Origin: Thermoplasmata archaeon
GTDB lineage: Archaea > Thermoplasmatota > Thermoplasmata > RBG-16-68-12 > JAGMCJ01
Direction of reading: 5' to 3'
Length of the DNA: 43,337 bases
NCBI GenBank assembly: GCA_023136265.1
Contig: JAGLRN010000057.1
Location: 1 to 43,337, forward strand
Each line of letters starts with the position of its first letter. Position 1 is the first letter of the stretch. Positions 1,426 to 18,598 of this stretch are shown here, piece after piece. The translations under genes and the position numbers were made by a program. The notes beneath the pieces were generated by a model, which was not told where the DNA came from, searched no databases, and saw only the letters and a list, made by a program, of their open reading frames with translations.

Positions 1426-3519
1426 ATGCGCCGAGGCTCGTCTTTGACTCCTGATTATGAGATTCCCGAAGGCAAGGTAATCAAGACCTTCAAAGGCGGG
1501 ACGGATGCTCTCAAGAAGACACTTCTCGACCTGAAGAAATATGCCTTCAGCGGGTACGTGAAGACGATCTCCCTTCGGGATAACGAGCCTTCCATAGGGT
1601 ACGTGGTCGTCAAAGAGGGCACCCCCGCCATCTCCGTCTACATCGGTGAGGGGGGCTCCGAGTACGGACGAATGGGCCTCAAGAAGATCTGGGAGGACTC
1701 TTACGACGGGAAATGCGAGATTGAGCTGCATGCCAGGGTCGGGGTAAACGAGCTCATTCGCCAGTACGGAGCGAAGGCCAGTATCGCCAAGCTGAAGAAG
1801 TCGGAGAAGATCAAGATCGTTGACAAGGGGGAGAAGGTCCTTCGCAGGAAGCTCGAGCTGTGGGAGAAGAGAGGTTACGATGGGAGCAAGCTGGAGAAGG
1901 CTCTCAAGGGTGATATGGAAAAGGCCAGGAACATCTTCCGAACCTTTGAAGAGGACGTCAAGAAGCTGAAGATACTGGAGGAGATCCTGGACTCCATGGA
2001 AACTAAGGGGTTCGAGGACGAGGTCCAGGCGATCAAGTCGAAGTTCAAGAAGCCGGAGATGAACCTCGCGATAGAGGCAGACATCGAGAGGCTAAGGGAG
2101 AAGCTAGAGGAAAAGGAGGATATGGAGCGCTGGCTGACCGCCGAGGAGAAGGTCATCGGGGAGAAGGAGATTGAATCCAGGGCCACCGCCGTTGCCGACA
2201 TGATCGTGGAGAAGGCGGATGACGAGGCCGAACTGCCAGATGTGCCCCCGCTAACGAAGGAGGAGGTCGAGAGCAAGCACAAGCGGGACGAGAAGACCAA
2301 CCTGATAGGCCAGTTCACGTTCGACAGGTTCGTCGTCGGTCCTAGCAACAGGTTCGCGCAGGCGGCAAGTCTCGCCGTTGCGAAGACGCCGTACAAGGCC
2401 TACAATCCCCTTTTCATCTGCAGCGGGCCGGGTCTGGGCAAGACGCACCTGCTCAACGCGATGGGGAACTACATCATGGAAAGGTCGCCGGAGACGAAGG
2501 TCCTCTACGTCACGCTGGAGACGTTTGTCAACGAGCACAACGACGCCAAGAGAACGGGCGACCTCTCGGCCTTCAGGAAGAAGTACAGGAACCTGGATGT
2601 GATGCTCCTGGACGACGCCCAGTTCCTGTCCGGGAATGACGACGTGCAGGAGGAGCTCTTTCACACTTTCAACGCCCTCTATAACGCGAACAAGGAGATC
2701 GCGCTGACGAGCGACCGACCGCCGAAGGACATACCGGAGCTCGAGGACCGCCTAGTGTCCAGGTTCGAATCGGGCCTTGTCACGGACATCCAGATCCCAG
2801 AGGTCGAGACGAGGGTCGCGATTCTGGCGAAGAAGGCGGAGGAGGCGGAAGTGATCCTCGGTGAGGACGTCCTGGACTTCATGGCGAACGCTCCGACCGA
2901 TAACATCCGCGAGCTGGAGGGCCTGCTGAACCGCGTCGTCGCGTACTCCTCGCTGACCGAAGTCCCGATCACGCTGGAGATGGCGAAGGATGTGCTGTCC
3001 GACGTCGCTGCGAGAGAGGCGATGAGAGAGGGAGAGATCGTGGAGGAGATGGAGAGGGAACTCGTCGCAGGCAGGAGCTATCTCATCGAGGAGGACAGAC
3101 CCGCGAACGTCTTCAGGCTGTGCCGCGAAGCGATGGAGGAAGGCAGCACCGCGTTCCTGGTCACGCGAACGAATCCCAGGAGGATGAGGGACGTCTTCGA
3201 CTTGGGCGACGCCCGAATCGTCTGGCTGACCGATAGGGACAGCGCCAGCGAGGAAACCATCCCGCCCACGTTGGAGCGGATAATATACATGATAGAGAAC
3301 TTCGTCAAGAACGCCGACAAGGGCATCGTGGTGCTGGACGGCCTGGAGTATCTCATAAGCAACAACAACTTCGACGCGGTGCTGCGCTTCCTGAGAAGGC
3401 TCATAGACGAGGTTTCCGAGAGCAGCGCTTTCTTCTTGCTGTCCGTGAGTCCGAAAACGCTGAGGGAGCAGGAACTGAAGATACTCGAGAGGGAGATGGA
3501 AGTAAGGATCTTCCGCTAG
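1426..3519 (+). CDS. DnaA-like AAA+ ATPase with N-terminal PATAN/DUF2226-like domain and C-terminal DUF835
   Basis: Numbering from ATG 1426 (697 aa). Residues about 14-115 look like the small PATAN/DUF2226 sensory fold (GYVKTISL, GYVVVKEGTPAISVY). A charged coiled coil fills about 150-260. Residues about 296-530 are strikingly like the ATPase domain of bacterial DnaA: FTFDRFVVGPSNRFA, Walker A GPGLGKTH, Walker B MLLDDAQFL, FHTFNALYNANKEI, LTSDRPPKDIPELEDRL, the arginine-finger segment SRFESGL, and sensor 2 NIRELEGLLNRVVAY. DnaA domain IV, the DNA-binding HTH, is absent; in its place residues about 547-697 form a DUF835 domain (SYLIEE, VWLTDRD, IVVLDGLEYLISNNNF). Archaea start replication with Orc1/Cdc6, so an initiator role is unlikely and an ATP-switch or signalling role is inferred. 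The start is uncertain: TTG 1444 is an alternative given the TATA boxes. It converges with the next gene, sharing CTAG stops. Confidence 0.85.
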   Translation: MRRGSSLTPDYEIPEGKVIKTFKGGTDALKKTLLDLKKYAFSGYVKTISLRDNEPSIGYVVVKEGTPAISVYIGEGGSEYGRMGLKKIWEDSYDGKCEIELHARVGVNELIRQYGAKASIAKLKKSEKIKIVDKGEKVLRRKLELWEKRGYDGSKLEKALKGDMEKARNIFRTFEEDVKKLKILEEILDSMETKGFEDEVQAIKSKFKKPEMNLAIEADIERLREKLEEKEDMERWLTAEEKVIGEKEIESRATAVADMIVEKADDEAELPDVPPLTKEEVESKHKRDEKTNLIGQFTFDRFVVGPSNRFAQAASLAVAKTPYKAYNPLFICSGPGLGKTHLLNAMGNYIMERSPETKVLYVTLETFVNEHNDAKRTGDLSAFRKKYRNLDVMLLDDAQFLSGNDDVQEELFHTFNALYNANKEIALTSDRPPKDIPELEDRLVSRFESGLVTDIQIPEVETRVAILAKKAEEAEVILGEDVLDFMANAPTDNIRELEGLLNRVVAYSSLTEVPITLEMAKDVLSDVAAREAMREGEIVEEMERELVAGRSYLIEEDRPANVFRLCREAMEEGSTAFLVTRTNPRRMRDVFDLGDARIVWLTDRDSASEETIPPTLERIIYMIENFVKNADKGIVVLDGLEYLISNNNFDAVLRFLRRLIDEVSESSAFFLLSVSPKTLREQELKILEREMEVRIFR

Positions 3520-4997
3520 CCCCTTCTCATGTTCCTTATCTCTTTTCTGAATACCTTAAGGAGCCCGAGGGAGTCCACGTATTTCTCCTCCTTCAGGGTC
3601 TTGCTCGCCTTCTTCAGTATCTGGATGGGTCTCTTCAGGTCCCCTCCTCTGACCTTGAGCTCGAGTAGTATGTCCCGGGCCCTCTTGACCTCCTCCACGA
3701 GCTGGGCGGGCAGTTTCTCGATGAGTTTCTCCCTGCTCTGCTTCGCGAACAGGGAGGCGACGTCCCACTCCTTTCTCTGAAGGGCCGCCGAACCCTCCTT
3801 GTACAAGTGCTCTGCCTCTGACACGTCGATTCCGAACTGCGAGGCGTCCTCAATCAGTTGCTTGGCCTCCTTAAGGGCGTCCTTCGCGGTGGTCAAGCCT
3901 CCGCCGACGGTCTCGAACTCCTTCTTCGCGGACTGTAGGTCCTTTATGGAACCCTCGAAGTCCTCGTTCTCCAAGGACAGTATCGCGCTCTCTATCGTTT
4001 CCTCGATCCTCTCGACATCTGCGCCCAGGCCCCTCGCGGCGGTCACATCCTCGCGGAATGCCTCGATGCTACCAGCAATCTGCTCCGTGAAAGCGTCCTC
4101 AAGGCCGACCTTGCTCTGCATCACGAGTCCAACGGCCTTCCTTATGTCTCTCCTTTTTCCGGCGGCGATCGCCTCGCTTATCAGCTTCCTGCTCTCGGTT
4201 ATGTCGATGCCGAGCTTCTTGGCGGATATGAGCATCGGCTTGACCTCGTTCACGAGCTTCGGGAGGTTCTTGTAGAGGGCTCGTATGTCTTCCTCCTCCT
4301 CGACCTCCGCCACTGCACGGGCCTCTCTCTTCGCCTTCACCCTTTCCAGGACCGTGAAACCTGGCACGGGAGGCTCGATTTCCGGCTCTTCAGGGAACTC
4401 GATTTCCGGCGGCTCCACCACCTCTTCTTCCACTTCCTCGGCGGGTTCTTCCGGAACCAGTATCGCCTCTCCTTCTTCGAACTCCTCAGCCGGGGCCTCT
4501 TCCTCCGCTGGAGCTTCCTCCTCGGCGGGGGCCTCCTCCTCGACTTCGAACTCAACCCCGCAACCCGGACAGGACGAGGCGTCACTGGCGACTATCGCCT
4601 TACAGACGGGACACTCGAACTCGGCCTCTTCTTCCCCAACGAACTCCGCGCCGCATCCAGGGCAGGAGGTTGCGTCGGAGGCCACTGAAGCGCCACAGGC
4701 CGGGCATTCGAACTCGACATCCCCTCTGGCCTCATCGACGACGGCGGTATCGTTCTTTCCCAGGCTCTTGATGTCTTCCAGGATGTCGCCCTCTTCGCCC
4801 TTCTCCTCTCCCACGATGTTCGCAAGGATCTGATCTATCGATTTCTCGTCGTTTATCCTGATCTTGTCTATGTCCAAACCCGGTTCCGAATCGAAGTCGA
4901 AAAGCGTCAAATCGGTGTGGCAAGAAGGGCAAATCTTGGCGGCGGGGTCTATTGTTGCATCACACACTGGACAAGTCTTCTTCTCCCCACCTGCCAA
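3516..4997 (-). CDS. zinc-ribbon protein with acidic linker and four helical repeats
   Basis: Function unknown; probably a cytosolic scaffold. It starts with TTG at 4997, preceded five bases earlier by GAGGTGAA. The N-terminus has a CPVC/CPSC ribbon (residues about 9-26), followed by two more pairs, CPAC/CPGC and CPVC/CPGC, at about 98-150. An acidic EAPAEEE linker follows (about 152-215). The C-terminal 270 residues hold four copies of a helical unit with the pattern D-x-x-x-(8-9)-A-x-x-x-x-(D/E)-(Y/F/W): IDITESRKL, ADVERIEETI, IDVSEAEHLY and GDLKRPIQIL are the repeat heads. The same unit is repeated about 21 times in the 1496-residue protein at 30543-35033, so the two are related. No signal peptide or membrane segment is seen. 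Its stop overlaps that of the DnaA-like gene. Confidence 0.8.
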   Translation of the reverse strand: MAGGEKKTCPVCDATIDPAAKICPSCHTDLTLFDFDSEPGLDIDKIRINDEKSIDQILANIVGEEKGEEGDILEDIKSLGKNDTAVVDEARGDVEFECPACGASVASDATSCPGCGAEFVGEEEAEFECPVCKAIVASDASSCPGCGVEFEVEEEAPAEEEAPAEEEAPAEEFEEGEAILVPEEPAEEVEEEVVEPPEIEFPEEPEIEPPVPGFTVLERVKAKREARAVAEVEEEEDIRALYKNLPKLVNEVKPMLISAKKLGIDITESRKLISEAIAAGKRRDIRKAVGLVMQSKVGLEDAFTEQIAGSIEAFREDVTAARGLGADVERIEETIESAILSLENEDFEGSIKDLQSAKKEFETVGGGLTTAKDALKEAKQLIEDASQFGIDVSEAEHLYKEGSAALQRKEWDVASLFAKQSREKLIEKLPAQLVEEVKRARDILLELKVRGGDLKRPIQILKKASKTLKEEKYVDSLGLLKVFRKEIRNMRRG

Positions 4998-5156: not shown

Positions 5157-5870
5157 ATGTTCAAGAACTCAATAGAAGGGCTGGACAAAGTCTTCAAGAC
5201 GGATATCGAGTCGCCCAAAGTGATACTCGTTACCGGCCCCCCAGGATCCATGAAGACCAGTTTCTGCTATGCAATGATGTCGAAGTACCTCTCGAACTCG
5301 GGTGAATTCGGCCTCTACACGACGCTCGAAGAGAGCGTCACGAGCCACCTGAAGAACATGGAGAGCCTCGGCATCGAGATATCCCTGAACCTTCAGATAT
5401 CGGACTTCACGGACCTGCGCGAGATTGACCAAGTAGTCGATGAGAGCGAGGCGACCGACTACCTGCAGTTCATAGAGAAGATGATCACGCACTTCAAAAA
5501 GGTCCACGGGAAGAAGTTCAAGGTCTTCGCGCTCGACTCTCTTGGAGCTCTCTATTCGCTCATGGAGGACGTGAGCGACATGAGGAAGAAGATGTTCTAC
5601 TTCTTCAAGATGATCAGGGACAACGACCTCATCTCATTCGTGATCATGGAGAGGTCTCTCGGAGCGGAGTCCCAGCTCCTCGGAAACGAGGGGTTCCTTG
5701 TCGATGGGATCATCATGCTGGGACTGGACAGGATGAGGGGAAAGCTCGTCCGCTACCTCCAGGTCGAGAAGATGAGGGCCTCGCAGCACAGCATGGAGAG
5801 GCATGCCGTCCAGGTCGGGGAGGACGGGATATCCATCCTGGGCCCGATTTTCGATAGCGGGGGTGATTAG
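5157..5870 (+). CDS. KaiC-like RecA-superfamily ATPase
   Basis: A single RecA/RAD55-fold ATPase domain of 237 residues, the size of one KaiC or archaellum ArlH-type domain. Walker A is GPPGSMKTS at about 28-36, with Met where many have Gly-x-Gly-Lys. The TTLEES segment at about 59-64 carries the catalytic-type Glu, and the hydrophobic Walker B ends in LDS (KVFALDSLGAL, about 122-132). The last part (MRGKLVRYLQVEKMRA) is the usual beta-hairpin with KMR. It has no second domain and no CheY/HTH fusion. In archaea such proteins act as ATP-dependent switches in signalling or as partners of motility motors; no partner can be proved here. It has its own promoter and a good ribosome binding site. It lies between two zinc-ribbon genes, which may be its partners (inference). 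Confidence 0.85.
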   Translation: MFKNSIEGLDKVFKTDIESPKVILVTGPPGSMKTSFCYAMMSKYLSNSGEFGLYTTLEESVTSHLKNMESLGIEISLNLQISDFTDLREIDQVVDESEATDYLQFIEKMITHFKKVHGKKFKVFALDSLGALYSLMEDVSDMRKKMFYFFKMIRDNDLISFVIMERSLGAESQLLGNEGFLVDGIIMLGLDRMRGKLVRYLQVEKMRASQHSMERHAVQVGEDGISILGPIFDSGGD

Positions 5871-5942: not shown

Positions 5943-7103
5943 TTGGCAGAAGATGAGGCTCCAGAGGAAGAAGCCGCTTCCGATTCGGCCCTTGGTACTG
6001 AGTCCATATTCGACACCATAAAGAAGGTCGAGCTGGCACTCAAGGAAAAGGAAGAGACGATCAGGAAAAAAGAAGCGGAGCTTGGTGAGATAGAGACGCG
6101 AGTGCAGACGCAGAAAGAGGAGATAGAATCTGCGAAACAGGCCCTCGACTCTGAGAAGGAGAGCTTTGAGGCCGAGAAGAACGAGCTGAGTGCGGAAAAG
6201 GAGAGAGTTGAGGGACTCAGCGCGGAGATTTCCGGGAAGGAGGCGGAGTTCGCGAGCCGGGAATCCGAGATCTCTTCGAGGCAGGAGCAGCTCGTTGCGC
6301 GCGAGGAGGACGTCCTTCGCAAGGAGGAAGGCCTCTCTGGAAAGGAGAACGAGATCTCCTCGAAGAGAAACGAGGTGTTCGCAAGGGAAGAGACCCTCCT
6401 GAGGATGGAGAAGGAGCTGAGAGAGGTTCTCGACGCCAACATCCAGAAGGCGAACAACCTCCTCGAGAGGGAGAAACAGGTTGCCTCCGAGGAAGAAGAG
6501 GTCCGCCAACTGAAGCAGAAGCTCATCGAGGACGGAAAGAAGCTGATGGAGAAGGAGAGGGCGATCCTAGGCAAGGAAGTGGAGGTCAGGGAGATGGTCG
6601 AGGCCGAGGTCACGGCCGAGGAGGAGGCTCCCGCCGAGGAGGAACCCGCTGAAGAGATGCCCCCTGAGGAAGCTCCCACTGAAGAGGCCGAAGAACCCCC
6701 CGCAGAGGAGGTTCCCGAAGAGGAAGCTCCCACTGAAGAGGCCGAAGAGGCTCCCGCAGAGGAGGTTCCCGAAGAGGAGGCTCCAGCAGAGGAAGAGGCC
6801 GAAGAGGCTCCCGCTGAAGGAGAGGCTGGCGAGATCCCCTGCCCCGCCTGCGGGACCATGATCAGCTCGGACGCCGTGATGTGCTACGCCTGCGGTCACA
6901 AGCTCGAGGAGGGCGCCGAGGAAGCTCCCGCCGAAGAGGAGGCCCCGGCAGAGGAAGAGGCCGGCGAGGAAGAGGAGATCCCCTGCCCCGCCTGCGGGAC
7001 CATGATCAGCTCGGACGCCGTGATGTGCTACGCCTGCGGTCACAAGCTCGAGGAAGGGTCCTCCAAGAAGAAACCCGTCCGCAAGATCCTGAAACGGAAA
7101 TAG
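5943..7103 (+). CDS. coiled-coil protein with two C-terminal zinc ribbons
   Basis: 386 residues, function unknown. Residues about 18-220 are a nearly unbroken charged coiled coil rich in Glu/Lys. Residues about 221-300 are a low-complexity EEAPAEEEPAEE linker. The C-terminal quarter has two identical four-cysteine ribbons (CPACGTMIS, then CYACGHKLEEG) separated by another acidic linker, and a basic end (KKKPVRKILKRK). TTG 5943 is chosen because GAGGCGAT lies just upstream and the DNA before it holds the promoter. No signal peptide or membrane segment is present. The layout (long rod, flexible arm, ribbons) suggests a cytosolic adaptor. The same kind of acidic linker and ribbon occurs in the genes at 3516-4997 and 7254-13172, hinting at a common set of proteins. 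Confidence 0.78.
   Translation: MAEDEAPEEEAASDSALGTESIFDTIKKVELALKEKEETIRKKEAELGEIETRVQTQKEEIESAKQALDSEKESFEAEKNELSAEKERVEGLSAEISGKEAEFASRESEISSRQEQLVAREEDVLRKEEGLSGKENEISSKRNEVFAREETLLRMEKELREVLDANIQKANNLLEREKQVASEEEEVRQLKQKLIEDGKKLMEKERAILGKEVEVREMVEAEVTAEEEAPAEEEPAEEMPPEEAPTEEAEEPPAEEVPEEEAPTEEAEEAPAEEVPEEEAPAEEEAEEAPAEGEAGEIPCPACGTMISSDAVMCYACGHKLEEGAEEAPAEEEAPAEEEAGEEEEIPCPACGTMISSDAVMCYACGHKLEEGSSKKKPVRKILKRK
6666..6773 (+). repeat. 54-base tandem repeat, two copies, in the acidic linker
   Basis: 6666-6719 and 6720-6773 match at 51 of 54 positions by eye. Each copy encodes 18 residues of the Pro-Ala-Glu linker. A shorter, decayed third copy follows. It is in frame, so it can expand or shrink without breaking the gene. 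Confidence 0.85.
6831..7054 (+). repeat. perfect 80-base direct repeat encoding a zinc ribbon
   Basis: The copies lie at 6831-6910 and 6975-7054 and are identical base for base; the start-to-start distance of 144 keeps the frame. Each encodes one complete four-cysteine ribbon. Identity at silent positions points to recent duplication or ongoing gene conversion. Confidence 0.92.
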
Positions 7104-7148: not shown

Positions 7149-7253
7149 CATATATATATGCCAAGCACCTTATTGTCAAAAAGCGTTTAGAACCATACTG
7201 GTTGCGCGTTGTTTAATAGGTGTCCAGCATCGATATTTAATGGAGGAATAAGC
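7149..7253 (+). promoter_or_regulatory. promoter and leader of the 1972-residue surface protein gene
   Basis: An alternating TATATATATG at about 7151-7160 is a strong TATA box and implies a leader of about 70 bases. GGAGGA at about 7242-7247, seven bases before ATG 7254, is the ribosome binding site and decides the start. A second AT-rich stretch (GATATTTAAT, about 7232-7241) is too close to the ATG to be its TATA. Confidence 0.65.
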
Positions 7254-10200
7254 ATGGGAAAGAACTTCTCGAAGCTCATGATGAGATTCGTGAGCTTTCT
7301 AATCGTAGGGACCATGATTCTTGGAAGCATGATGGGGATTCTCGACCAGCGTGAGGTCGAGGCAGATATCATAATCGACATCAACGGAGATGTTCTGATT
7401 ACCCCACCAGGAGAGACCTGGCAGGATGCAATCTATCGCGTGGACGGCAATATCACGATTGCCGGTGGAACACTAGAAGTGATAAACGGCGGAATCGTGT
7501 TCCTGCAGGACATCACGCACGTTCACCATCTGACAATCCAAGGTCCGGGGAGACTATGGCTCGTCAACAGCACCGTATCGACCTGGCTGGACCAAATCAA
7601 CAGCTACCCCAAGCTCAACATGCACGTGTCTGGAACACTTGAGATGGACACGGGTTCGCAGCTGAAGTTCCCGGGAACGCTGAACGCCTACGCGGGCTCC
7701 TCGATCGAGATGCGGGATTCCGTGATAACCGGGTTCTCCGCAACTGAACTGTCACCGTACGTAGGCGGGGCCACGCAGGAGTTTGATGACGCTCCCGTGA
7801 TGACCTTCACGGATTCAACTGTTGATTTGTATGACTCGAGAATCGAGAAGATTTATGAGAATCCAGGTTCTGGTGGTTCGGACTTCAGGTACAACATCAC
7901 GCTTGAAGGCAATACTGAGATGACAATAGTGAATTCCTATGTCGGAGTGGACTACTCCAATGACGCCAATAAACACAACGTCATCCTGGCGGATGACACA
8001 TCCACCGTTTACATATACAACATGACAATTGACGAAGATCAGGATCCGGCTCCCCACCTGAGATCTCCCTGCCTTCAACCATATGGCAATGTGATTCTTG
8101 GGAGTGGGACTGCTCTGCCAGACTCGATTCATCAGACGTTGGATACAACAACAACGCCCCAGGATGAGACGTTCTTGCAGGTGGACGACAATATCTGGTA
8201 TGTTGTCAAACCTCAAGAAACGATGTTCATAGATGGATTCGATTTGAACATGCCTTATGTGATGACCAGTGCTATGCTTTGGGTAACCTACTTCACGGAT
8301 CCAGAGTACGATGGAACTCGACCCGTCCGGTGGGGACAGTGGCCAGATTTGGGTGACACAACCATTGTTCCGGTCAATGCTGGCCTGGAGATCACTGCAA
8401 GCTTTGACCTCTACAGCGCTGGAATGGACACATTCAACGAACTCAGTGATCTCGACATCACATTCACTAACAACGATGCTTTGCCGGCGGCAAACGTCTA
8501 CTTCGACAGAATCTGGATCGAAGTGGATTACTTCGTCATAGACTCCCAGGCGACATTCTACATCCACCGCTGGCTCGTTCCGACCGTACGGGATGAGAAC
8601 GGAGCTCCCGTCGAGGACGCGGATGTTGACATAACATTCCTCGCTGATCCATTACTTCTTCCTGAGTACCCGAGGAATGGCTGGGCCAATGATCCGAGCT
8701 CAGACATACTCACGTACCTCGGGAAGACCGTGGGGAACTACAAGACAACCGGGGCGGACGGAAGGGCTTGGATTCCATTGCTCTCTGAGTGGATGAACAG
8801 CACACTGCAGCAGCCCACATTCCCGAACACCGAGTTCATCGGCAACTACAACGCGACTGCCACTTATGTACCGTTCACTGGCTTCGCAACCATGGCTTTC
8901 AACCCGTACCCAGCGCTGACCGAGTCCGATAATACTTATGTGTTGGACATATACCTCATTGGGCTCGTCCTCCCTGAGCCAGACCTTACACCCAAGACCG
9001 TCTGGACAGATCCCGCGATAATCCACGTTGGTGATAATGTGACTATCTGGGCAACGGTCGAGAACGTGGGTGACTGGCCAGCCATCGACATCTGGGTGGA
9101 CTTCACGGTGGGGGCGACCATCCTGCAATCCTGCTTCATCCCATGGCTGAACATAAGCGATTCAGCCAACTGCTCGGCTGTATGGATCAATGCAACGGTG
9201 GGAACCCATCTCGTCGTCGTTGATGTTGACCCGCCCATCGACACCGGCGGGATGATCCAGGAGTCGAATGAGGGCAACAACATGATGACCCTGCCCATAA
9301 CGGTGGAACCCCTCTATCCCGATCTCGTTGTCTTCATTGCCGCCCCAGGTCAGGGCTATCCTGGCAACCCATTGACAATCACTGCAACGATTCAGAATCA
9401 GGGCAATGCTGATGTGACGAACAAGTTCTTCGTGGAGTTCTTCATCGGAGCGGACAGCATCGATCTCATCACGTACTCAGACATACTAGATAACGAAACG
9501 ACCATCATCCTGGAAACCGAGTGGACGCCCATTGCTGTGGGCGATTACACGATTCGCGTCGTCGTCGATCCGACGGACACGGTGCAGGAGATCAGTGAGG
9601 ACAACAACGAAGCGACCTGGGACATCCAGGTCATTCCTGTCGCGAATCTTGTCATAATCTCGGACTACGTGTCTCCGGACGATCCCTGTCCATCGGAGGG
9701 CCAGAACATCCGGGCTGACGCTTGGATATCCAACGCAGGTCAGGCCGACGCCGCCATCTTCGAGGTGGCCTTCTGGATAGATGGCGTTTCAGTGGGAACA
9801 TGGACTTCCCCGTCTACTCTGGCCCCTGGGGCCACGGTCCTTGCTACAAGTCCGTTGTCAACACCAGCAGGGAGTCCTGGTTTCGGGGAAATCACGGTCA
9901 TGGTCGACCCGACCGATGCAATAACAGAGAGCAATGACGACGACAATACGGTGATTGCCCCGTACATGGTCTACACGGGATTAGAAACCGTCTGGTCTGT
10001 TGACACGACACTGGACTCAGTGGCCGTCTCACCGACTGACAACCTCGTGATTACGGCCAACATCGTGCTCATAAACTCGGAACTCACGGTGACTCAGTCA
10101 GGACCTGGCATTGGCCGGCACTACGTCAAGATCCAGACCGGAGGCAGCCTGACCCTCATCAACAGCGAGCTGAAGACCAACTTCGTTAACAACTGGCCTC

Positions 10201-13172
10201 TGAACGTCTGCGTGCTGGGCGACGGAGAGCTGATAACCGAGCAGGACTCCCAGGTGCTCCTGGACTCGGAGATCCATGGAAAGGGAGCTCTATTCACTCG
10301 AGGGAACGGGAGGATAGACCTGAGCGACACCATGCTCGACGGGGACATCAGGGCAACTGGATTCGATGTCTCGCTCAAGGACGTGGACCTCACCGGGGAT
10401 GTCGTGTTCATCTACACTCAGAACACCTCATACATATGGGACACGGTCTTCTGGACCGTTGGAACGCTTTCATTGAACACCGACGACGGTGATGTTGGCA
10501 CGCTCGACTTCGACATCAGGAACGTGTCCTTCGCCGACCCAGGTCTGGACCGGCAGCTCGTCTTTGGCGGGGACCAGTGGGTCTGGCTCACGGATGTCGA
10601 GACGCACATCCCTGTGGGCGAGGACTGGTGGACCAACATGATCGTCGGAAGCGCCAAGGTCTCGGTCTACTACTGGCTCACGGTCGAACTTGTTGACGGT
10701 ACGGGGGCATTGCTTCCGACCTCGAACCTCACGCTCTATCATCTCGACCCGGACACGCTCAGCTGGAGTGTGGCCATCGACGATCTGGGCAACCCCGTGC
10801 AAGACGTCTTCCTCCTGGAGGGCAACTACTTGTACCGCGCGCTTTCCCAGATAAGGTTCACGGTGGACCACTATGAGCCGTGGACATACATGGCGAACGG
10901 GTCGAAGTACCTTCCAGTTGAGGGAAGGAACTACTATCCCGACAAGGACGTCGCTGGCAGCGTTATGTCGAACACCGTCATCCGACTCGTGTTCTCGGCC
11001 CTCACCCCCGAGTTATGGCCTGAGGGAATCAGCTTCATCGGCGGCAACGGTATTTCGACCGACCAGCCGTACAACCTGGCTCTGGATGTCTCCGCCGCCG
11101 TTCACAATGATGGTAAGATCACGACGAGGAACGTCGAGGTCTACTTCTACGCCACCGACATCGATCCCGACAAGGATGGCACAATGCAGAACGAACCATC
11201 GACCTTCGCGGCCTACTTGATCGGTGTTGCCATCATCGACGTACCGGCGAACGGTACGGCAAACGCAGTGGTCACGTGGGAGAAGGACCAACCGACAATG
11301 ATCGCTGCTGGAAACAAGATCTCCGTCTTCATAGACATGTATGACAAGATCAACGAGGTCAACGAGCTGAACAACATTCGTATGGAAGTAGTCACCATGT
11401 TCCGCTGGCCCGACCTCGAGGTTCCGGTCGAGGATATCATCTCGATCCCGACACAGGTCCCAGTCAACTCACAGGTAACCCTTCAGGCGAAGGTCCGCAA
11501 CGTCGGATCGGCCGAAGCGACGAATGTCAGAGTGGAGTTCCTTGATAGCGGGACGTCGATCGGCAACGACACGATTCCCGTCATCCATTCCAGTGGATCG
11601 GCCCTTGCCATGGTCGACTGGACCGCCACTCAGTCAGGACCTCGTGAGATAACGGTAATCGCTTACACGGACAACCTCACTAGCGAGAACACGGACTACA
11701 ATTGGGATAACAACGAAGCGTCGATTACGAAGTCCGTTCTCTCCGTTCCAGACCTCATGGTGGACTCGACTAGCGTCACGGGTCTTGGAACACCGCCGAA
11801 CGTGACACAGGCCAAGGGATTCACATTCACCGTCAGGGTCTACAACATCGGTCAGAGCTCTGTCTCCTCGTTCACCATCGACGCATACATTGACAGTAAC
11901 GCCCTCCTAATCGCAAGCCTGAGTGATCTGTCCATTGGAGGCGATACGTACAGCGACTTCGAAATCTCCGTCGCGGACGGCCTGCCCGACACGGGGACGT
12001 ACGACCTTATTGTGGCAGTTGATCCAGCCTACGAAGTCCCCGAGGCCGACGATGCGAACAACAACGTCACGGTCTCCCTGCAAGTTGTTCCGCCTCAGGG
12101 TTTCATAACGATAAGCCAACCGCCAGTTGGCCAGGAATACAAGCCCGGCACGACGATACTCATAAGAGGCCGTGTCCAGACAAACGCACACGATCCGATA
12201 CCCGGCGTAACAGTGCATATTGACCTTCTCGGTACCCCGGCTTCGGTGAACACTGTGACTGACTCTAGTGGCCAATTCCTCATCACGAGCTTCCAGATCC
12301 CCGACGTCAAGGGCACGTTCATTCTCCAGGCCTCGACCGACATCGTCTCCATTACAGATGCCAATGTGACGATCACGGTCAAGGAGGAAATCCCCTGGTA
12401 TATGGAGAAGTTCCTTGGGATTGAGATATGGCTCTGGCTCATCATCATCATAATCATCGTTGCCGTCATCGTTGCCGTCACAGTCTATCTCAAGTACGTC
12501 GGACTCGGCAAGCTTGTCGAATGCGGGAACTGTGGAGCTTTCATCCCGGAGTCCAGCGAGAAGTGTCCGAAGTGCGGCGTGGAATTCGAGAAGGACCTGG
12601 CGAAGTGCAGCAGCTGTGGAGCTTGGATACCCATCGGCGTCAAGGTCTGTCCCGAGTGCGGCGTGGAGTTCGCGACCGGAGAGCTCGAGATGGAGGAGTA
12701 TCACGAGAAGATGAAGATGCAGTACGAAGAGGTCGTTGCGAAGTTCCGCGCTGAGGCCGACAAGGCTCTTGGAAGAACCCTCAGCGAGGATGAGTTCCAG
12801 TCGTGGTGGAAGACACAACCAACGTTCGTGACCTTCCAGGAATGGCTGAGGGAAGAAGAGGAGATGAGGAAGATGGGCTCACGCGCGTGCCCGTCCTGCG
12901 GAACGCTCAACTCCGTCACGGCCAAGGTGTGCCACAAGTGCGGTACCCTCTTCGAGGATGTCGAGGCGGAGGTCCCGCCTGCAAAGGAGCCGCCCAGGAA
13001 ACCCGCAGCCCCGGCCCCTGTCGAGGAGAAGGCCGTCCCCGAGGAGAAGCTGGAGAAGCTGGAAAGGCCGGTTCCGAAGAAGGTCGTCAAGAAGCCGGTG
13101 GACAGGGCCGTAGTTCAGAAGAAAGTGATTAAGAAGCCCGTCGTCGAAGAGGAGACGGAAGGAGAGCTCTAG
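7254..13172 (+). CDS. giant CARDB/beta-helix surface protein with transmembrane anchor and cytoplasmic zinc ribbons
   Basis: 1972 residues from ATG 7254. A signal peptide (FVSFLIVGTMILGSMMG, about 12-28) is followed by right-handed beta-helix-like repeats. Three CARDB-type Ig domains come next (around 565-900; typical PDL, VENVG, ESNEGNN motifs). A second beta-helix-like part follows (around 900-1240), then three more CARDB-like domains (about 1255-1620; VRNVGSAEATNV, DWDNNEA-like ends) and one carboxypeptidase-regulatory-like domain (about 1620-1715). One hydrophobic helix (WLWLIIIIIIVAVIVAV, about 1725-1748) then crosses the membrane. What follows must be cytoplasmic: paired ribbons CGNC/CPKC and CSSC/CPEC (about 1755-1809), a charged helix, a third ribbon CPSC/CHKC (about 1877-1900), and a Pro/Lys tail. 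Probably an adhesin or surface sensor. It converges on the pilus operon with CTAG-overlapping stops. Confidence 0.85.
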   Translation: MGKNFSKLMMRFVSFLIVGTMILGSMMGILDQREVEADIIIDINGDVLITPPGETWQDAIYRVDGNITIAGGTLEVINGGIVFLQDITHVHHLTIQGPGRLWLVNSTVSTWLDQINSYPKLNMHVSGTLEMDTGSQLKFPGTLNAYAGSSIEMRDSVITGFSATELSPYVGGATQEFDDAPVMTFTDSTVDLYDSRIEKIYENPGSGGSDFRYNITLEGNTEMTIVNSYVGVDYSNDANKHNVILADDTSTVYIYNMTIDEDQDPAPHLRSPCLQPYGNVILGSGTALPDSIHQTLDTTTTPQDETFLQVDDNIWYVVKPQETMFIDGFDLNMPYVMTSAMLWVTYFTDPEYDGTRPVRWGQWPDLGDTTIVPVNAGLEITASFDLYSAGMDTFNELSDLDITFTNNDALPAANVYFDRIWIEVDYFVIDSQATFYIHRWLVPTVRDENGAPVEDADVDITFLADPLLLPEYPRNGWANDPSSDILTYLGKTVGNYKTTGADGRAWIPLLSEWMNSTLQQPTFPNTEFIGNYNATATYVPFTGFATMAFNPYPALTESDNTYVLDIYLIGLVLPEPDLTPKTVWTDPAIIHVGDNVTIWATVENVGDWPAIDIWVDFTVGATILQSCFIPWLNISDSANCSAVWINATVGTHLVVVDVDPPIDTGGMIQESNEGNNMMTLPITVEPLYPDLVVFIAAPGQGYPGNPLTITATIQNQGNADVTNKFFVEFFIGADSIDLITYSDILDNETTIILETEWTPIAVGDYTIRVVVDPTDTVQEISEDNNEATWDIQVIPVANLVIISDYVSPDDPCPSEGQNIRADAWISNAGQADAAIFEVAFWIDGVSVGTWTSPSTLAPGATVLATSPLSTPAGSPGFGEITVMVDPTDAITESNDDDNTVIAPYMVYTGLETVWSVDTTLDSVAVSPTDNLVITANIVLINSELTVTQSGPGIGRHYVKIQTGGSLTLINSELKTNFVNNWPLNVCVLGDGELITEQDSQVLLDSEIHGKGALFTRGNGRIDLSDTMLDGDIRATGFDVSLKDVDLTGDVVFIYTQNTSYIWDTVFWTVGTLSLNTDDGDVGTLDFDIRNVSFADPGLDRQLVFGGDQWVWLTDVETHIPVGEDWWTNMIVGSAKVSVYYWLTVELVDGTGALLPTSNLTLYHLDPDTLSWSVAIDDLGNPVQDVFLLEGNYLYRALSQIRFTVDHYEPWTYMANGSKYLPVEGRNYYPDKDVAGSVMSNTVIRLVFSALTPELWPEGISFIGGNGISTDQPYNLALDVSAAVHNDGKITTRNVEVYFYATDIDPDKDGTMQNEPSTFAAYLIGVAIIDVPANGTANAVVTWEKDQPTMIAAGNKISVFIDMYDKINEVNELNNIRMEVVTMFRWPDLEVPVEDIISIPTQVPVNSQVTLQAKVRNVGSAEATNVRVEFLDSGTSIGNDTIPVIHSSGSALAMVDWTATQSGPREITVIAYTDNLTSENTDYNWDNNEASITKSVLSVPDLMVDSTSVTGLGTPPNVTQAKGFTFTVRVYNIGQSSVSSFTIDAYIDSNALLIASLSDLSIGGDTYSDFEISVADGLPDTGTYDLIVAVDPAYEVPEADDANNNVTVSLQVVPPQGFITISQPPVGQEYKPGTTILIRGRVQTNAHDPIPGVTVHIDLLGTPASVNTVTDSSGQFLITSFQIPDVKGTFILQASTDIVSITDANVTITVKEEIPWYMEKFLGIEIWLWLIIIIIIVAVIVAVTVYLKYVGLGKLVECGNCGAFIPESSEKCPKCGVEFEKDLAKCSSCGAWIPIGVKVCPECGVEFATGELEMEEYHEKMKMQYEEVVAKFRAEADKALGRTLSEDEFQSWWKTQPTFVTFQEWLREEEEMRKMGSRACPSCGTLNSVTAKVCHKCGTLFEDVEAEVPPAKEPPRKPAAPAPVEEKAVPEEKLEKLERPVPKKVVKKPVDRAVVQKKVIKKPVVEEETEGEL

Positions 13173-14962
13173 CCTCTCGCCAGAACCCCTTTCGCTTTCT
13201 TGTAGACCGCGTCGGGGTCCTTGTAGTACGAGGAGATGATCTTCGCCACCTGCGTGTGTTTATCGAGCCCGATCTTGTTCATGTACTTGAAGAGCTCGAT
13301 TCTCCTCCGGACCTCCTGCTCCATCCTCTTCTGTGACCAGTTCCTCGTGATGGATATCTTCTCGTAGACGTAGCTGTGCCCGCTGTAGTTGAAGGTGTCG
13401 TCAGCAGGGTTCCACGAGTAGGCGGTGTTGGTTATCAGCTCGTCTGACTCAGGGTCCACCCCGATGAACTCTGTGAGCGACTTCACTCTTCTGGTCATGT
13501 CGGTCCCAACCTTCACCTGGGCCTGCATCAGGACGATGTCCAGTGCGGAGACAAGAGCGCGCGGGAGGTTTATCGGGTCGTTCTCCATCCTGTGAACCAT
13601 CGCCTGGACGTCCTCAGCGTGGAACGTCGTGTACGCACTCTTCCCCGTTGCCATCGCCTGGAAGACGACGTAGGCCTCCGTTCCTCTGACCTCTCCGACC
13701 ATCAGGTACTGAGGCCGTTGTCGCAGGGCGGATGTCAGCAGGTCGAACATGTCGATCTCTCCCATCGCCTTCCCCGTGACCGGATTCCTGGATCCGAACC
13801 CAGCACGGGTCACGGTGGGAACCCAGTTGTCGTGCGGCAGGTTGAGCTCTCTAGTGTCCTCGATGCTGACGATCTTCATCTGAGGCGGTATGAAGAGCAG
13901 TATGGCGTTGAGCGTGGTAGTCTTCCCGCTCGCCGTTCCACCGCATATGAGCATGGACTGACCGTTCTCGATGGCGAGCCACAGATAGGCCATCATCTCA
14001 TCATTCATCGTCTTGAATCTCAACAGGTCCAGAGGTGTGAACGGGTTCTCCCTGAACCTTCTGATCGTGAAGCTCGAGCCTCTCTTGGTGACGTGCTTGC
14101 CGAGTGTCGCCTGAAGCCTTGACCCATCCGGCACTGTGGCGTCGAGCATCGGTTGCGCGACCGAGATGTGCTTGCCGCATCTCTGTGCCAGCCAAACGAC
14201 GAAGGAATCGAGCTCCCCCTCGTCGTCAAACTTCAGGTTGGAGGGTATGGACCCGTACTTCCTGTGATAGATGTAGAACGGGATCTGGACACCATCACAC
14301 GAGATGTCCTCCACGTTCGGGTCGATCATCACGGTATCGATGGCTCCGAACCTGATGAAGTCCCTGAGCACGTAGTACATTATCCTCTCCTTGGATATCG
14401 GGTGAAGGTTGACACCGAGCTCCCGGAGAAGACCGTCCACAAGCCTCCTCAGGTAGGTCTCCCTAACTCTCTCGTCCTCTTCCGCGATTGTCTCAAGTGA
14501 TTCGACCAGGATCTCCTTGAGGACCTCGAGTATGTCCACCTCTTCTGGGAGGAGTTTCGGCTCAATGACCTCGTACCTGTACTCATTCGAGCGCGTGTCG
14601 TAGTTTATGCGAATGTAGGAATAACCCTCAATCATGGGCAGGATCTCGATTTCAGTGAGGTCCTTCTTCGAAATCTTGGGGATCGTAGTTACCCTTCCCA
14701 TCGTTTTCTCTTCGACCCCACCGACCAAGGGCGCGAGGACCTTTATTCCCTTCTTGCCCAGAAGCTTGCTGAAGTATCCCTTCTTGACGGCATCGAGGGC
14801 GGAGAAGACGCTTCTCTTCCTGCGCTCTTCTATGACTTCCAGCTCCTCCTCTGTCGCCGTCTTCTCCCGTTCGAGCCGCCTGAGCTTCGCAGCAGTCTCT
14901 TCCTCTCTCCTCTTGAGCTCTTCCAGCTCGTCTTTGACATCCTTGCCTATCGCTTCACTCAA
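13169..14962 (-). CDS. type II/IV secretion-type ATPase (TadA/VirB11/ArlI-like), copy 2 of the operon
   Basis: Hexameric motor ATPase of the PilT/VirB11 superfamily, acting at the inner face of the membrane with the F-type proteins encoded just upstream. The frame is open to 14971, but AGGTGAT followed by four bases points to TTG 14962 (597 aa). A basic coiled coil (about 10-60) precedes the N-terminal domain. The motor core has DISCDG, RGSSFTIRRF, Walker A GGTASGKTTT (about 345-353), the Asp box SIEDTREL, Walker B-type YLMVGEVRG and the His box TTFHAE. It is clearly homologous to the copy at 16922-18598 along its whole core but differs in its N-terminal coiled coil and about half of its residues. 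Last gene of the operon; its stop overlaps the surface-protein gene in CTAG. Confidence 0.93.
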   Translation of the reverse strand: MSEAIGKDVKDELEELKRREEETAAKLRRLEREKTATEEELEVIEERRKRSVFSALDAVKKGYFSKLLGKKGIKVLAPLVGGVEEKTMGRVTTIPKISKKDLTEIEILPMIEGYSYIRINYDTRSNEYRYEVIEPKLLPEEVDILEVLKEILVESLETIAEEDERVRETYLRRLVDGLLRELGVNLHPISKERIMYYVLRDFIRFGAIDTVMIDPNVEDISCDGVQIPFYIYHRKYGSIPSNLKFDDEGELDSFVVWLAQRCGKHISVAQPMLDATVPDGSRLQATLGKHVTKRGSSFTIRRFRENPFTPLDLLRFKTMNDEMMAYLWLAIENGQSMLICGGTASGKTTTLNAILLFIPPQMKIVSIEDTRELNLPHDNWVPTVTRAGFGSRNPVTGKAMGEIDMFDLLTSALRQRPQYLMVGEVRGTEAYVVFQAMATGKSAYTTFHAEDVQAMVHRMENDPINLPRALVSALDIVLMQAQVKVGTDMTRRVKSLTEFIGVDPESDELITNTAYSWNPADDTFNYSGHSYVYEKISITRNWSQKRMEQEVRRRIELFKYMNKIGLDKHTQVAKIISSYYKDPDAVYKKAKGVLARG

Positions 14963-14971
14963 TTCCATCAC

Positions 14972-15910
14972 CTAGATTAACATCAGAATGGAGAAACCGA
15001 TTATCAACATCAGGAAGCTGTGCCTGAATCCGCTGACTACCCTTCCGTTGTCGATAACCCCTGCGAGCAGCCCATCACCCACGGCATGTATTATCGCTGC
15101 AAGGAAGAAGGCCAGCTTGATGCTTTCCACGACATTCGGCAGGTCGGACGCAAGCGGGCTATCCACCGAACCGCCACTGTCGCCACCTGTGGCAGTGAGC
15201 GACTCGCTTGCCTCAAGCATCTTCGGGAGGAAAGTCGCGTTGATGATGGCGATTGTGACAAGGAACACGAAGAACGAGATGTAGATGACAGCGATGTATG
15301 TCGACATCGCAATGCTCCTTTCGTATTCTGTCAGCTGCGTTTCCTTGGCATCATGCGACACCATCGTCAGAACGTCTGCGACATCTCCGCCCGCATCGCT
15401 CGACTTGACGATGATGCTGACGACACGACTGACCATGGGCGTCTTGACACGCTCGTTGAAGAGCTTGAGTGCTTCGCTCGCGGGAACTCCCCATTGGATT
15501 TGGGCCGCCATCTTCTCGATCTCTGCAGTGAGCTTCCCATACCTTCCGGACGAGGCCACGACAATCGATTCGGCAAGAGTCATTCCGAACCTTCCGGCCT
15601 CAGCAACGTCTCTGAGGAAATCCGGAAGCCTTCCCTCGATCGCCTCGATTTGCTTCAGTTTCCTCTGCGAATAGAACCCGTACGGCCCCAGCATAGCGAG
15701 CATTGCAAAGACAATGAAGTTCACCCCCCTCTTGACGGGCTGGGTCGCCTCGTCCGCACGCAGTGGCATGTTGAAGATATCCATGATGTTCAGGATTGCG
15801 ATGACGACGAGGATCCCAGCAATGCCCCCGCTCACTAGCAGTATCGGTTTGGTGAAGTCCAGCTTCTCGTACATCTTTGTCTTGGCTTGCTCCAGGTCTG
15901 CTTTCGTCAT
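14972..15910 (-). CDS. type II secretion F-family membrane protein (TadC-like)
   Basis: Polytopic platform protein of the pilus; the family couples the ATPase to pilin insertion. An early hydrophobic pair (PILLVSGGIAGILVVIAIL and FIVFAMLAMLGPYGF) is followed by a cytoplasmic T2SSF domain with LPDFLRDVAEAGRFGM and SSDAGGDVADVLTM. Two or three C-terminal membrane helices (YIAVIYISFFVFLVTIAI, LAFFLAAIIHAVG, SFLMLIIGFSILMLI) end the protein. ATG 15910 is chosen (312 aa): GGAGG lies seven bases upstream and ATGA overlaps the stop of the preceding gene. The frame is open to 15937. Confidence 0.9.
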   Translation of the reverse strand: MTKADLEQAKTKMYEKLDFTKPILLVSGGIAGILVVIAILNIMDIFNMPLRADEATQPVKRGVNFIVFAMLAMLGPYGFYSQRKLKQIEAIEGRLPDFLRDVAEAGRFGMTLAESIVVASSGRYGKLTAEIEKMAAQIQWGVPASEALKLFNERVKTPMVSRVVSIIVKSSDAGGDVADVLTMVSHDAKETQLTEYERSIAMSTYIAVIYISFFVFLVTIAIINATFLPKMLEASESLTATGGDSGGSVDSPLASDLPNVVESIKLAFFLAAIIHAVGDGLLAGVIDNGRVVSGFRHSFLMLIIGFSILMLI

Positions 15911-16941
15911 CCCCTGGCCTCCTGCTCCATGTTCCATATGACGAAGATGAACCCGAACTGGGAAATCGGTATCATTAGGCCAACGACGACGTACAGCAGG
16001 GTCACAACAAAGCCTGACCCACCCTTGCTAATCAGGCCCATTATGGCCATGATGACGACGAGGAAGAGAGGGAAAGCGACGACTACCGTGACGAAGCTCT
16101 CTGCAAGCATGCCGAGGGTCTCCATGTTCTTCTTCATTTCCAGTTTGTCTTCCTTCTCGAACTGTTCCGCCTTCATAAGGAAGTAGGGCTTGAGCTGTCC
16201 TCCGGACGTGGAGGTTGTGACGACGCCCTGGAGGAAGTCCTGGAACTTGATGGACGGGGATCTTGCGGCACCAGCACGGATGGCGGAGAGGATGTCGACT
16301 CCCAGAAGCTCCGTGTCCCTCGTTATCCACTCGGCCTCCTCAGCAACCTCGCCGTACACCGTTTGCTTCGAGAGCTCCTTGAAAATGACGTCGACTGGCA
16401 CGTCGGCCGACGCCATCGCGGAAATGAAGCTCATCGCTCCGGAAATCTTGGCGTCGATCTTGGTTCCCCTCTTCTTCTTCGTGGATGAAGGGGAGTGCAT
16501 CAATACGAAGTACGCGAGGACTGCTGGAACCACTGCCAACAAGATGGCAATGATGATGCTTGTCATCGCATCCGCGCCCAGTATGAACATGAGCGCTCCG
16601 AGGATTACTCCGAGGATCACACCGACGATCACCATGATGAACGTGCTCATCCAAACATAGGCCAGATACTCTTCCGGTCTGATTTTCAGGTGAGCCTGAA
16701 CGAGGTTGTCTTCCAGTTCCTGCGTCGGTTCGAACTTCGACTCCACGAACCCTCCAAGGAAGCGCCAGCTGGTCTCCTGAAAGGGCGTCAGCTTGATGTA
16801 TGCTGCCGGTTTCGAGCCCTTGGCCAGCCTTATCTGGTGAGGCCCTCTGAACCCTGCGTCATCTGGTCTGAACCTCTTCGTCTTCACATAGGCCTTACTC
16901 GCCTCTAACTTATCGAATGTGTCAGACCTCTCTGGCGGCAA
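15907..16941 (-). CDS. type II secretion F-family membrane protein (TadB-like)
   Basis: Second platform protein of the pilus operon, the partner of the TadC-like protein. A soluble N-terminal region of about 95 residues is followed by two long membrane helices (FIMVIVGVILGVILGALMF and SIIIAILLAVVPAVLAYFV). Then come the cytoplasmic T2SSF domain (SFISAMASADVPVDVIF, FLQGVVTTSTSGGQ) and two C-terminal helices. The frame opens at TTG 16956, but AAGGTGAT at 16946-16953 with a four-base gap favours TTG 16941 (344 aa). It overlaps the ATPase gene before it by about 20 bases and the TadC-like gene after it by four, so translation is probably coupled. Confidence 0.9.
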   Translation of the reverse strand: MPPERSDTFDKLEASKAYVKTKRFRPDDAGFRGPHQIRLAKGSKPAAYIKLTPFQETSWRFLGGFVESKFEPTQELEDNLVQAHLKIRPEEYLAYVWMSTFIMVIVGVILGVILGALMFILGADAMTSIIIAILLAVVPAVLAYFVLMHSPSSTKKKRGTKIDAKISGAMSFISAMASADVPVDVIFKELSKQTVYGEVAEEAEWITRDTELLGVDILSAIRAGAARSPSIKFQDFLQGVVTTSTSGGQLKPYFLMKAEQFEKEDKLEMKKNMETLGMLAESFVTVVVAFPLFLVVIMAIMGLISKGGSGFVVTLLYVVVGLMIPISQFGFIFVIWNMEQEARG

Positions 16942-18598
16942 ACATATCACCTTCAACTAAATCCTCGGGTTTGGGCTCCTCTCGAACCCATCCCATCTCG
17001 TTTCTAATCTTCTCAATCGTCTCTTCAGGGTAGTGGTAGTAGGAGACAACGAGTCTCGAAATGCCCCTGTAATCGTCGAGTTCCTTCTCGACCATGTAGT
17101 TGACCAAGTCCACCCTTCTCTGGAACTCCTGGTCCATCTCATCATGGGTCATGTTCTTCATTTCCTGCAGCTCGTCGAAGAGGAAGCTGTGACCCTTGTA
17201 GATGAACGAATCGGTTGCCGTATCCCACTCGTACACCGTATTCGTGATCAGCTCATTCGTCTCGGGTTCGAAGCCGACAAGCTCAACTATCTGAACGATT
17301 CTTCTCACCTGCTCTGAATCGGCGCCGATTCTCGCGAAATTCTGTATGACCACGAAGTTGAGGGCGGTCAGCAAGATTCTCGGAGTGTTGATGGGCGGGT
17401 TCTCGAGTCTGTTGACCATCGATTTCACAGAGTCTGCGTGCATCGTGGACATCGTCGGGTGGCCCGTTGCCATGGCCTGGAACATCGTGTATGTCTCCCT
17501 TCCTCGGACCTCTCCGACAATGATGTAGTTGGGCCTCTGCCTGAGAGCTGCCCTTACCAGGTCGAACATATCTATCTCGCCGGCGGCCTTTCCATCTGGC
17601 CCCCTCTCGCCGACGCCACTCCTTGTTGTCCCTGGAATCCAGTTCTCATGTGGAAGGTTGATCTCTCTCGTGTCCTCGATGGACACGATCTTTGCACCTG
17701 GCCTGATGAACAATGCCGCCGCATTCAGAGTCGCCGTCTTGCCCGTAGCGGTCCCGCCACAGACCATCATGGACCTTCCGCTCTCTACAGCCAACCACAG
17801 ATACGCGACCATCTCCGGCGATGCCGTGTTGTAGGTTATGAGCTCAGTCGGAGTGAACGGTTTCTCCTTGAACCTTCGAATCGTGAAAGATGAACCTCGT
17901 GTGGTCACCTCCCTTGCGTACGTGGCCTGGACACGATGGCCTTCATAGCTGGTTCCGTCCAGGATGGGATTGGCCACAGAGATCTGCTTCCCGCATCTCT
18001 GTCCCAGCCCAATGACGAACGAGTTGAGTTCATTCTCATCGTCGAATCTCTCCCGTGTCCTGATGGACTCGTATTTCCTGTGGAATACGAAGAGAGGAAC
18101 GCCAACGCCATCGCACGAGACGTCCTCAATCGACTTATCGGCCATCAGAACATCGATCGGACCGTAACCCACGTAGTCCCTCGTGATGTAGTAGACGATC
18201 TTGTTCCGGGAGTTCTCGTCAAGGTTTATCCCCCTGCTCCTGAAGAAGCTGTCTATGCTCTCTCTGAGGAACTCTTCCTTGTCTTTTATGTCCAGGGTGC
18301 CGGCCTCGTACTCTAGCGTTCGTTTGAGCGAGTCTTTGACGAGGGCCAGCATCTTCTCTTCTCTCTCGGTGAGGAAAGGTTCCCACGACTCGTAGACGTA
18401 CTCGCTCCCCTTGTTGTCGTAGATTATTCTCGAGTAGCTGAAGGGAGGCTTTATGGGCACTATCTCAAGCTCCTCTATCCACTCCTCCTCAATCGGTGCG
18501 ATGGGCGTGAGGTGGGAACCTCTACCTCCTTCCCACTTCGTTGCCGTGGACGCGCCTCTTGGTACCAGGATTTTTCTCTGTTTCTTTGCTCCAAACAT
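16922..18598 (-). CDS. type II/IV secretion-type ATPase (TadA/VirB11/ArlI-like), copy 1 of the operon
   Basis: 558 residues. Motor ATPase of the same superfamily as the gene at 13169. Family motifs: SYSRIIYD near residue 54, DVSCDG (159-164), RGSSFTIRRF (234-243), Walker A GGTATGKTAT (281-290), Asp box SIEDTREI, NYIIVGEVRG, and the His box STMHAD. It has no long N-terminal coiled coil, unlike copy 2. ATG 18598 has GGAGGT about eight bases upstream. It is 22 bases downstream of the pilin-like gene and overlaps the TadB-like gene, so it is the usual pilin-proximal assembly ATPase of the operon. Alternative roles (DNA or protein transport) cannot be excluded. Confidence 0.93.
   Translation of the reverse strand: MFGAKKQRKILVPRGASTATKWEGGRGSHLTPIAPIEEEWIEELEIVPIKPPFSYSRIIYDNKGSEYVYESWEPFLTEREEKMLALVKDSLKRTLEYEAGTLDIKDKEEFLRESIDSFFRSRGINLDENSRNKIVYYITRDYVGYGPIDVLMADKSIEDVSCDGVGVPLFVFHRKYESIRTRERFDDENELNSFVIGLGQRCGKQISVANPILDGTSYEGHRVQATYAREVTTRGSSFTIRRFKEKPFTPTELITYNTASPEMVAYLWLAVESGRSMMVCGGTATGKTATLNAAALFIRPGAKIVSIEDTREINLPHENWIPGTTRSGVGERGPDGKAAGEIDMFDLVRAALRQRPNYIIVGEVRGRETYTMFQAMATGHPTMSTMHADSVKSMVNRLENPPINTPRILLTALNFVVIQNFARIGADSEQVRRIVQIVELVGFEPETNELITNTVYEWDTATDSFIYKGHSFLFDELQEMKNMTHDEMDQEFQRRVDLVNYMVEKELDDYRGISRLVVSYYHYPEETIEKIRNEMGWVREEPKPEDLVEGDMFAAREV

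Follow-up and report, generated by a model that had tools for sequence, protein, structure and literature searches.

A DnaA-type ATPase fused to an inactivated KaiC domain in archaea of the phylum Thermoplasmatota

Replication is regarded as the task of DnaA in bacteria and of Orc1/Cdc6 in archaea, which begs the question what a DnaA-type ATPase is doing in a Thermoplasmata archaeon. The gene concerned lies at positions 1426 to 3519 of the window, by which we mean the whole stretch of 43,337 nucleotides that was analysed. A sequence-only reading had described it as encoding a DnaA ATPase domain without the DNA-binding domain. The coordinates and all the motifs quoted there were right and are present in the 697-aa protein, for which we use the name DnaA-iKaiC. 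The description itself was correct as far as it went, but the AAA+ domain does not stand alone: a signalling-type N-terminal domain precedes it and an inactivated KaiC domain follows, and it occurs widely in Thermoplasmatota.

The DnaA-iKaiC protein and its AAA+ domain

Upstream of the gene there is an in-frame TTG at 1342, but the alignment with relatives starts at the ATG at 1426. The protein carries, in this order, a PATAN/DUF2226-like N-terminal domain, a helical segment, DnaA domain III and, at the C-terminus, DUF835, which takes the position that domain IV has in DnaA. Its features are as follows:

1426..3519, plus strand: DnaA-iKaiC, 697-aa fusion protein (open reading frame; 49 homologues aligned; dN/dS 0.19 overall)
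1459..1797, plus strand: N-terminal domain, residues 12-124, PATAN/DUF2226-like, a weak assignment (pLDDT 91.9 and weak Pfam matches)
1825..2208, plus strand: helical segment, residues 134-261 (model)
2296..3015, plus strand: bacterial-type DnaA domain III, AAA+ core and lid, residues 291-530 (PF00308, E=1.1e-60; TM to 8bv3_A and 2z4r_A)
2425..2448, plus strand: Walker A motif GPGLGKTH, residues 334-341 (sequence)
2515..2589, plus strand: ISM, the initiator-specific two-helix insertion, residues 364-388, with N372 and K375 at the I190 and I193 positions (model, alignment)
2749..2763, plus strand: box VII with R442 and the arginine finger R446 (alignment)
2908..2910, plus strand: sensor II arginine R495 (alignment)
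3115..3498, plus strand: DUF835, an inactivated KaiC domain without Walker A, residues 564-691 (PF05763, E=7.4e-28)

An AlphaFold2 model built from 49 sequences (mean pLDDT 87) contains four confident blocks, namely the N-domain (17-118), the helical segment (134-261), the AAA+ domain (approximately 291-530) and a RecA/KaiC-like C-terminal domain (549-697), whose mutual placement is not fixed because the pTM of the whole protein is 0.46. The weak Pfam matches of the N-domain are to DUF2226 in 10 of 33 members and to DUF4388/PATAN in 2 of 33, and a PDB fold search with its model, which is confident on its own, gave no match below E=0.05 (best E=0.058).

The AAA+ domain is of the bacterial DnaA type. 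The Bac_DnaA profile matches residues 296-454 with 205 bits (cut-off 23), and the NCBIfam DnaA model gives 338.6 bits, just below its cut-off of 343.9, with an alignment that ends at position 343 of 437, approximately where domain IV begins. Among solved structures, B. subtilis DnaA comes first (8btg, E=7.5e-80), and the DnaA proteins of T. maritima and A. aeolicus are also among the best matches. Clostridial DnaA is 54% identical to domain III (BLASTP E=6e-91), and clostridial and bacillar DnaA stand at about this level. The modelled domain superimposes on B. subtilis domain III (8bv3_A) with a TM of 0.95 and an rmsd of 1.0 Å over 229 columns, and on T. maritima 2z4r_A with a TM of 0.96. The full AAA+ core and lid, Walker A and B, the ISM helices, the arginine finger and sensor II are shared with bacterial DnaA, whereas domain IV and a recognisable domain I are missing, and a PATAN-like N-domain and an iKaiC C-domain stand in their stead. 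The sequence-only reading had named two grounds against its own view, a tree position among Orc1/Cdc6 or other archaeal AAA+ families and loss of the initiator-specific motif in a structure model. Neither was observed. Both ISM helices are in the confident model (residues 364-377 and 380-388), and the domain groups with bacterial DnaA rather than with Orc1/Cdc6.

Orc1/Cdc6 resembles DnaA-iKaiC insofar as both are initiator-type AAA+ proteins in a broad sense, but a BLASTP comparison with the genome's own Orc1/Cdc6 detected no similarity (E=0.15), and DnaA-iKaiC lacks the Cdc6-type AAA+ and the winged helix. An origin from Orc1/Cdc6 or another archaeal AAA+ family was rejected on similarity and profile evidence. 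Of the IstB/DnaC-type models, NF038214 stays below its cut-off (55.8 against 200 bits), and Pfam IstB_IS21 passes its own (37 against 24.1), but remains far under Bac_DnaA.

At the C-terminus, the match to DUF835 scores 97.5 bits against a Pfam cut-off of 33.1, and a P-loop of the form GxxxxGK[S/T] was looked for in residues 549-697 and was not found. DUF835 has been described as "iKaiC", an inactivated KaiC (PMC5847659). Archaeal signalling proteins of this kind carry the inactivated KaiC as a C-terminal output domain, as in the REC-DUF835 proteins of Methanomicrobia and Thermoplasmata (PMC5847659), but the partner domain here is a DnaA AAA+ and not REC or PAS. In the literature that we searched, no DnaA-DUF835 or DnaA-KaiC protein from archaea was found, though a prior mention is possible in the literature on KaiC as a hub. 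A further DUF835 protein is encoded in the same genome (G000:C39; L112, 5515-9984, minus strand). It is a class I tRNA synthetase of 1490 aa (tRNA-synt_1, Anticodon_1, DUF5915; IleRS-like) that also carries a helix-hairpin-helix, zinc ribbons and, at its C-terminus, DUF835. Many other genomes of the class likewise have open reading frames of this size (approximately 1390-1500 aa) that match DUF835.

Distribution and origin

Strong DnaA-type AAA+ domains are found in approximately 104 of 250 genomes of the class Thermoplasmata, all of them MAGs of varying completeness, with one genome (G026) set aside as contaminated. The count covers this class and the survey of architectures its phylum, and a single scan of genome contigs reached one close relative. 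The Bac_DnaA Pfam profile also matches in three archaeal control genomes, these being profile matches alone. Several architectures exist in the phylum: proteins of about 430 aa with the AAA+ domain alone, proteins of 870-1020 aa with AAA+ and DUF835, and relatives of 1270-1420 aa (L085-L087) that combine the N-domain, several similar helical repeats, AAA+ and zinc ribbons. Divergent proteins from another branch (L104-L108), 635-856 aa long, also have a DnaA-type AAA+, and several of their contigs encode a DUF835-type protein as well.

An assembly artefact or recent bacterial contamination was also weighed. One MAG does speak for such events, namely G026, a single contig of 5.2 Mb that is probably contaminated or chimeric and carries two truncated DnaA copies (L064, L065) that start like bacterial DnaA. 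For the gene in the window, the probability of this explanation is negligible. DUF835 is fused to the domain in 49 of 49 aligned homologues and the gene has conserved archaeal neighbours, in an order that is kept across many families, and hence neither chance nor contamination accounts for it. Furthermore, the sequences of the class form one clade (support 92/85), and the AAA+ domain is under purifying selection (dN/dS 0.12-0.15 against L002 and L024).

When the tree is rooted on alphaproteobacterial and phage DnaA, which is an assumed root, all Thermoplasmatota rows are nested inside bacterial DnaA (100/99). Hda and DnaC, when used as outgroup, had very long branches and gave no usable root. 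An AU test does not reject the grouping of all Thermoplasmatota rows in one clade (p=0.588), and the constrained tree is even slightly better. A bacterial origin is favoured by the short branches to Firmicutes DnaA, the level of identity and the lack of detectable similarity to the genome's own Orc1. The gene capture from bacteria that the sequence-only reading had put forward is thus borne out as regards the grouping with bacterial DnaA, while its direction is likely rather than certain, the tree being unrooted.

Residues kept and lost

For the comparison of residues we aligned 62 sequences from the class Thermoplasmata, 26 from elsewhere in Thermoplasmatota and 15 from bacteria. The B. subtilis residues K157, T158, D214, D215, R260, R264 and R313 correspond to K339, T340, D396, D397, R442, R446 and R495, all of which are present in the window protein. 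In the Thermoplasmata rows, the Walker A lysine is found in 61 of 62 and T/S in all 62, Walker B is kept, and the sensor II arginine (R313) is present in 57 of 62. The arginine finger (R264), which all 15 bacterial sequences have, is found in 54 of the 62, such that about one row in eight lacks it. The retention of the finger and of the ATPase residues argues for nucleotide-dependent assembly, which, by analogy with the biochemistry of DnaA, we infer for the archaeal protein as well.

The situation is different for the grip on single-stranded DNA. In B. subtilis, I190 and I193 flank the captured base and K222 contacts the phosphate, and these residues are needed for ssDNA binding and oligomerisation (PMC10721633). 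The equivalents in the window protein are N, K and N, a loss that the sequence-only reading did not mention. The I190-type position is hydrophobic in 13 of 15 bacterial but only 19 of 62 Thermoplasmata rows (p=1e-4), the I193-type position in 15 of 15 against 21 of 62 (p=1.6e-6), and the K222-type position is basic in 14 of 15 against 36 of 62. The loss is partial, however, because the base-contacting residues N187, R202 and E228 are present as N369, R384 and E410 in the window protein and are mostly kept in the family. All three of the other ISM features are retained in 9 of 62 rows of the class and 12 of 26 elsewhere in the phylum, so that some members may still bind DNA.

Bac_DnaA_C (domain IV) was sought in the protein and in its genome and was not found. 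In addition, a domain-IV HMM built from 12 bacterial DnaAs, which recovers all bacterial and viral or phage DnaAs tested, gave no archaeal open reading frame at E<=10; the domain is absent from every archaeal homologue examined, and we therefore rejected the idea of a domain IV hidden in some homologue.

These observations bear on whether DnaA-iKaiC might still act on DNA, as a residual ssDNA-binding filament in which the zinc ribbons of partner proteins give the DNA contact in place of domain IV. The persistence of the ISM helices in the model, the three kept base contacts and the members with an intact set of ISM features are consistent with this. We nevertheless regard it as very unlikely, given the substitutions at all three positions in the window protein, the depletion of hydrophobic ISM positions in the class and the lack of domain IV.

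The four-gene module, the gyrase locus and possible functions

DnaA-iKaiC belongs to a module of four genes, the other three being:

3516..4997, minus strand: zinc-ribbon/helical protein, convergent neighbour (zinc ribbons; directly downstream in many families)
5157..5870, plus strand: KaiC-like ATPase with intact Walker A, GPPGSMKT (KaiC PF06745, E=1.1e-34; co-occurrence)
5943..7103, plus strand: coiled-coil protein with two C-terminal zinc ribbons (conserved gene order)

These neighbours, which the sequence-only reading did not take into account, are the most informative as to function. The convergent zinc-ribbon gene overlaps the DnaA-iKaiC gene by 4 bases, and its order with the KaiC-like gene is conserved across many families. 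The KaiC ortholog is clearly separable from its paralogs (best E<=1e-65 against 8e-43). Among the 250 genomes, 96 have both this ortholog and the DnaA-type AAA+, 8 only AAA+, 12 only KaiC and 134 neither, which leaves 20 discordant genomes (Fisher p=4e-45, a value that ignores relatedness and is inflated by shared ancestry). Joint presence and absence is also seen at a finer scale: in family f19, genus g72 has KaiC and AAA+ whereas g22 and g65 have neither, and two genera of f29 without DnaA-iKaiC also lack the other module genes, with the thiC-gyrBA locus otherwise intact (L183/L201, L184/L202).

Seven of the 12 KaiC-only genomes belong to family f24, and the three of them that were read (G156, G038 and G222; L180-L182) have, in the same syntenic slot, a gene for N-domain and DUF835 without AAA+. 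One genus group has thus lost the AAA+ domain alone, while the N-domain/iKaiC remainder and the neighbouring genes persist, which makes the AAA+ domain a removable module.

In families f8, f14, f24, f29 and f30, the order is zinc-ribbon / DnaA-iKaiC / ThiC-like / gyrB-gyrA / KaiC / coiled-coil zinc-ribbon, a composite, as not every module member was seen in every one of these families. In 23 genomes of six families, gyrB lies on the same contig 2.5-7.5 kb from the AAA+ gene. Gyrase in this group of archaea is itself a bacterial acquisition (PMC9348778), and in view of the linkage we considered a co-transfer of dnaA and gyrBA as a segment of a bacterial oriC. We do not claim it, since the genes are divergently oriented with a ThiC-like gene between them, and the story of a joint transfer is further weakened by five members of the phylum (MAGs 68-87% complete) that carry AAA+ without a detected gyrB.

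The gyrase neighbourhood hints at a link to the state of the chromosome. DnaA-iKaiC could be a chromosome regulator that either acts on Orc1/Cdc6 as an Hda-like partner or regulates gyrase and supercoiling, and that is itself controlled by the KaiC module. Hda, the RIDA factor, is a small protein that acts on DnaA together with the bacterial sliding clamp and stimulates the hydrolysis of DnaA-ATP. Like DnaA-iKaiC it has a DnaA-type AAA+ without domain IV, and Hda_lid matches 19 of the 49 members; the conserved order of the gyrase cluster fits a role at the chromosome as well. Against this, the window protein scores 92 bits with the NCBIfam Hda model (cut-off 194.8), has 24% identity to E. coli Hda and is a 697-aa signalling fusion, and the target of Hda, DnaA, is missing from the genome, in which no domain IV was found. 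Furthermore, in the taxonomic order of the window's genome the module has left the gyrase locus (gyrB is on contig C33), and the five members without a detected gyrB also speak against a tie to gyrase. We therefore judge a role of this kind to be rather unlikely.

What, then, does the protein do? The genome holds two complete Orc1/Cdc6 genes, such that DnaA-iKaiC is not the sole candidate initiator and another role is to be expected, as the sequence-only reading had argued. The absence of domain IV and the eroded ssDNA grip also argue against an initiator. The signal-driven ATPase scaffold envisaged there is conjectural, but three observations favour re-use in signalling: the fusion to DUF835, the presence of KaiC in the module and the co-loss of the module's genes. 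The linkage of the iKaiC fusion to an intact KaiC-like ATPase likewise suggests a signalling complex. Taken together, we consider it probable, though by no means assured, that the captured DnaA ATPase works within a KaiC-type signalling complex as a switch whose oligomerisation depends on nucleotide. Much as DnaA does, the AAA+ domains would stack head to tail by way of the arginine finger when ATP binds, and thereby cluster the N-terminal input domains and the C-terminal iKaiC domains. The iKaiC domains may then dock on the partner KaiC-like ATPase, to which the gene is tied by linkage and co-occurrence. The zinc-ribbon proteins might serve as adaptors, and their role as partners is supported by proteins of other lineages in which AAA+ and zinc ribbons are fused directly to each other. 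Hydrolysis would reset the assembly, and the opening of origins would be left to Orc1/Cdc6.

A wider reading would see here an undescribed four-gene ATP-switch complex across much of Thermoplasmata, with relatives elsewhere in the phylum, in which the DnaA filament motor, without reading DNA boxes, drives a KaiC-type machine that monitors or controls the chromosome, be it gyrase-made supercoiling or the timing of Orc1/Cdc6. We regard this as speculative and, as a whole, unlikely. A role in anti-phage defence was rejected, as PADLOC gave weak matches to mad8 and HEase alone.

The findings suggest that archaea across the phylum acquired a bacterial replication switch and turned it to a different use. 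A DnaA ATPase without its DNA-reading domain has persisted there long enough to be found in many families and several architectures, and nature thus offers a test of which DnaA parts can be uncoupled from replication. With the KaiC-like ATPase, a compact conserved module is now defined that is open to direct expression and testing.

Three further features of the window are worth recording. A 1496-aa protein (30543-35033, minus strand) had no Pfam match at 1e-5. Next to the module, a 1987-aa protein (7209-13172, plus strand) has a hydrophobic stretch near its N-terminus and, in its C-terminal part, a membrane helix and CxxC motifs that resemble zinc ribbons. It is followed by an archaeal pilus or Tad-like cluster (13169-18598, minus strand) with two T2SSE-type ATPases and two T2SSF-type membrane proteins.
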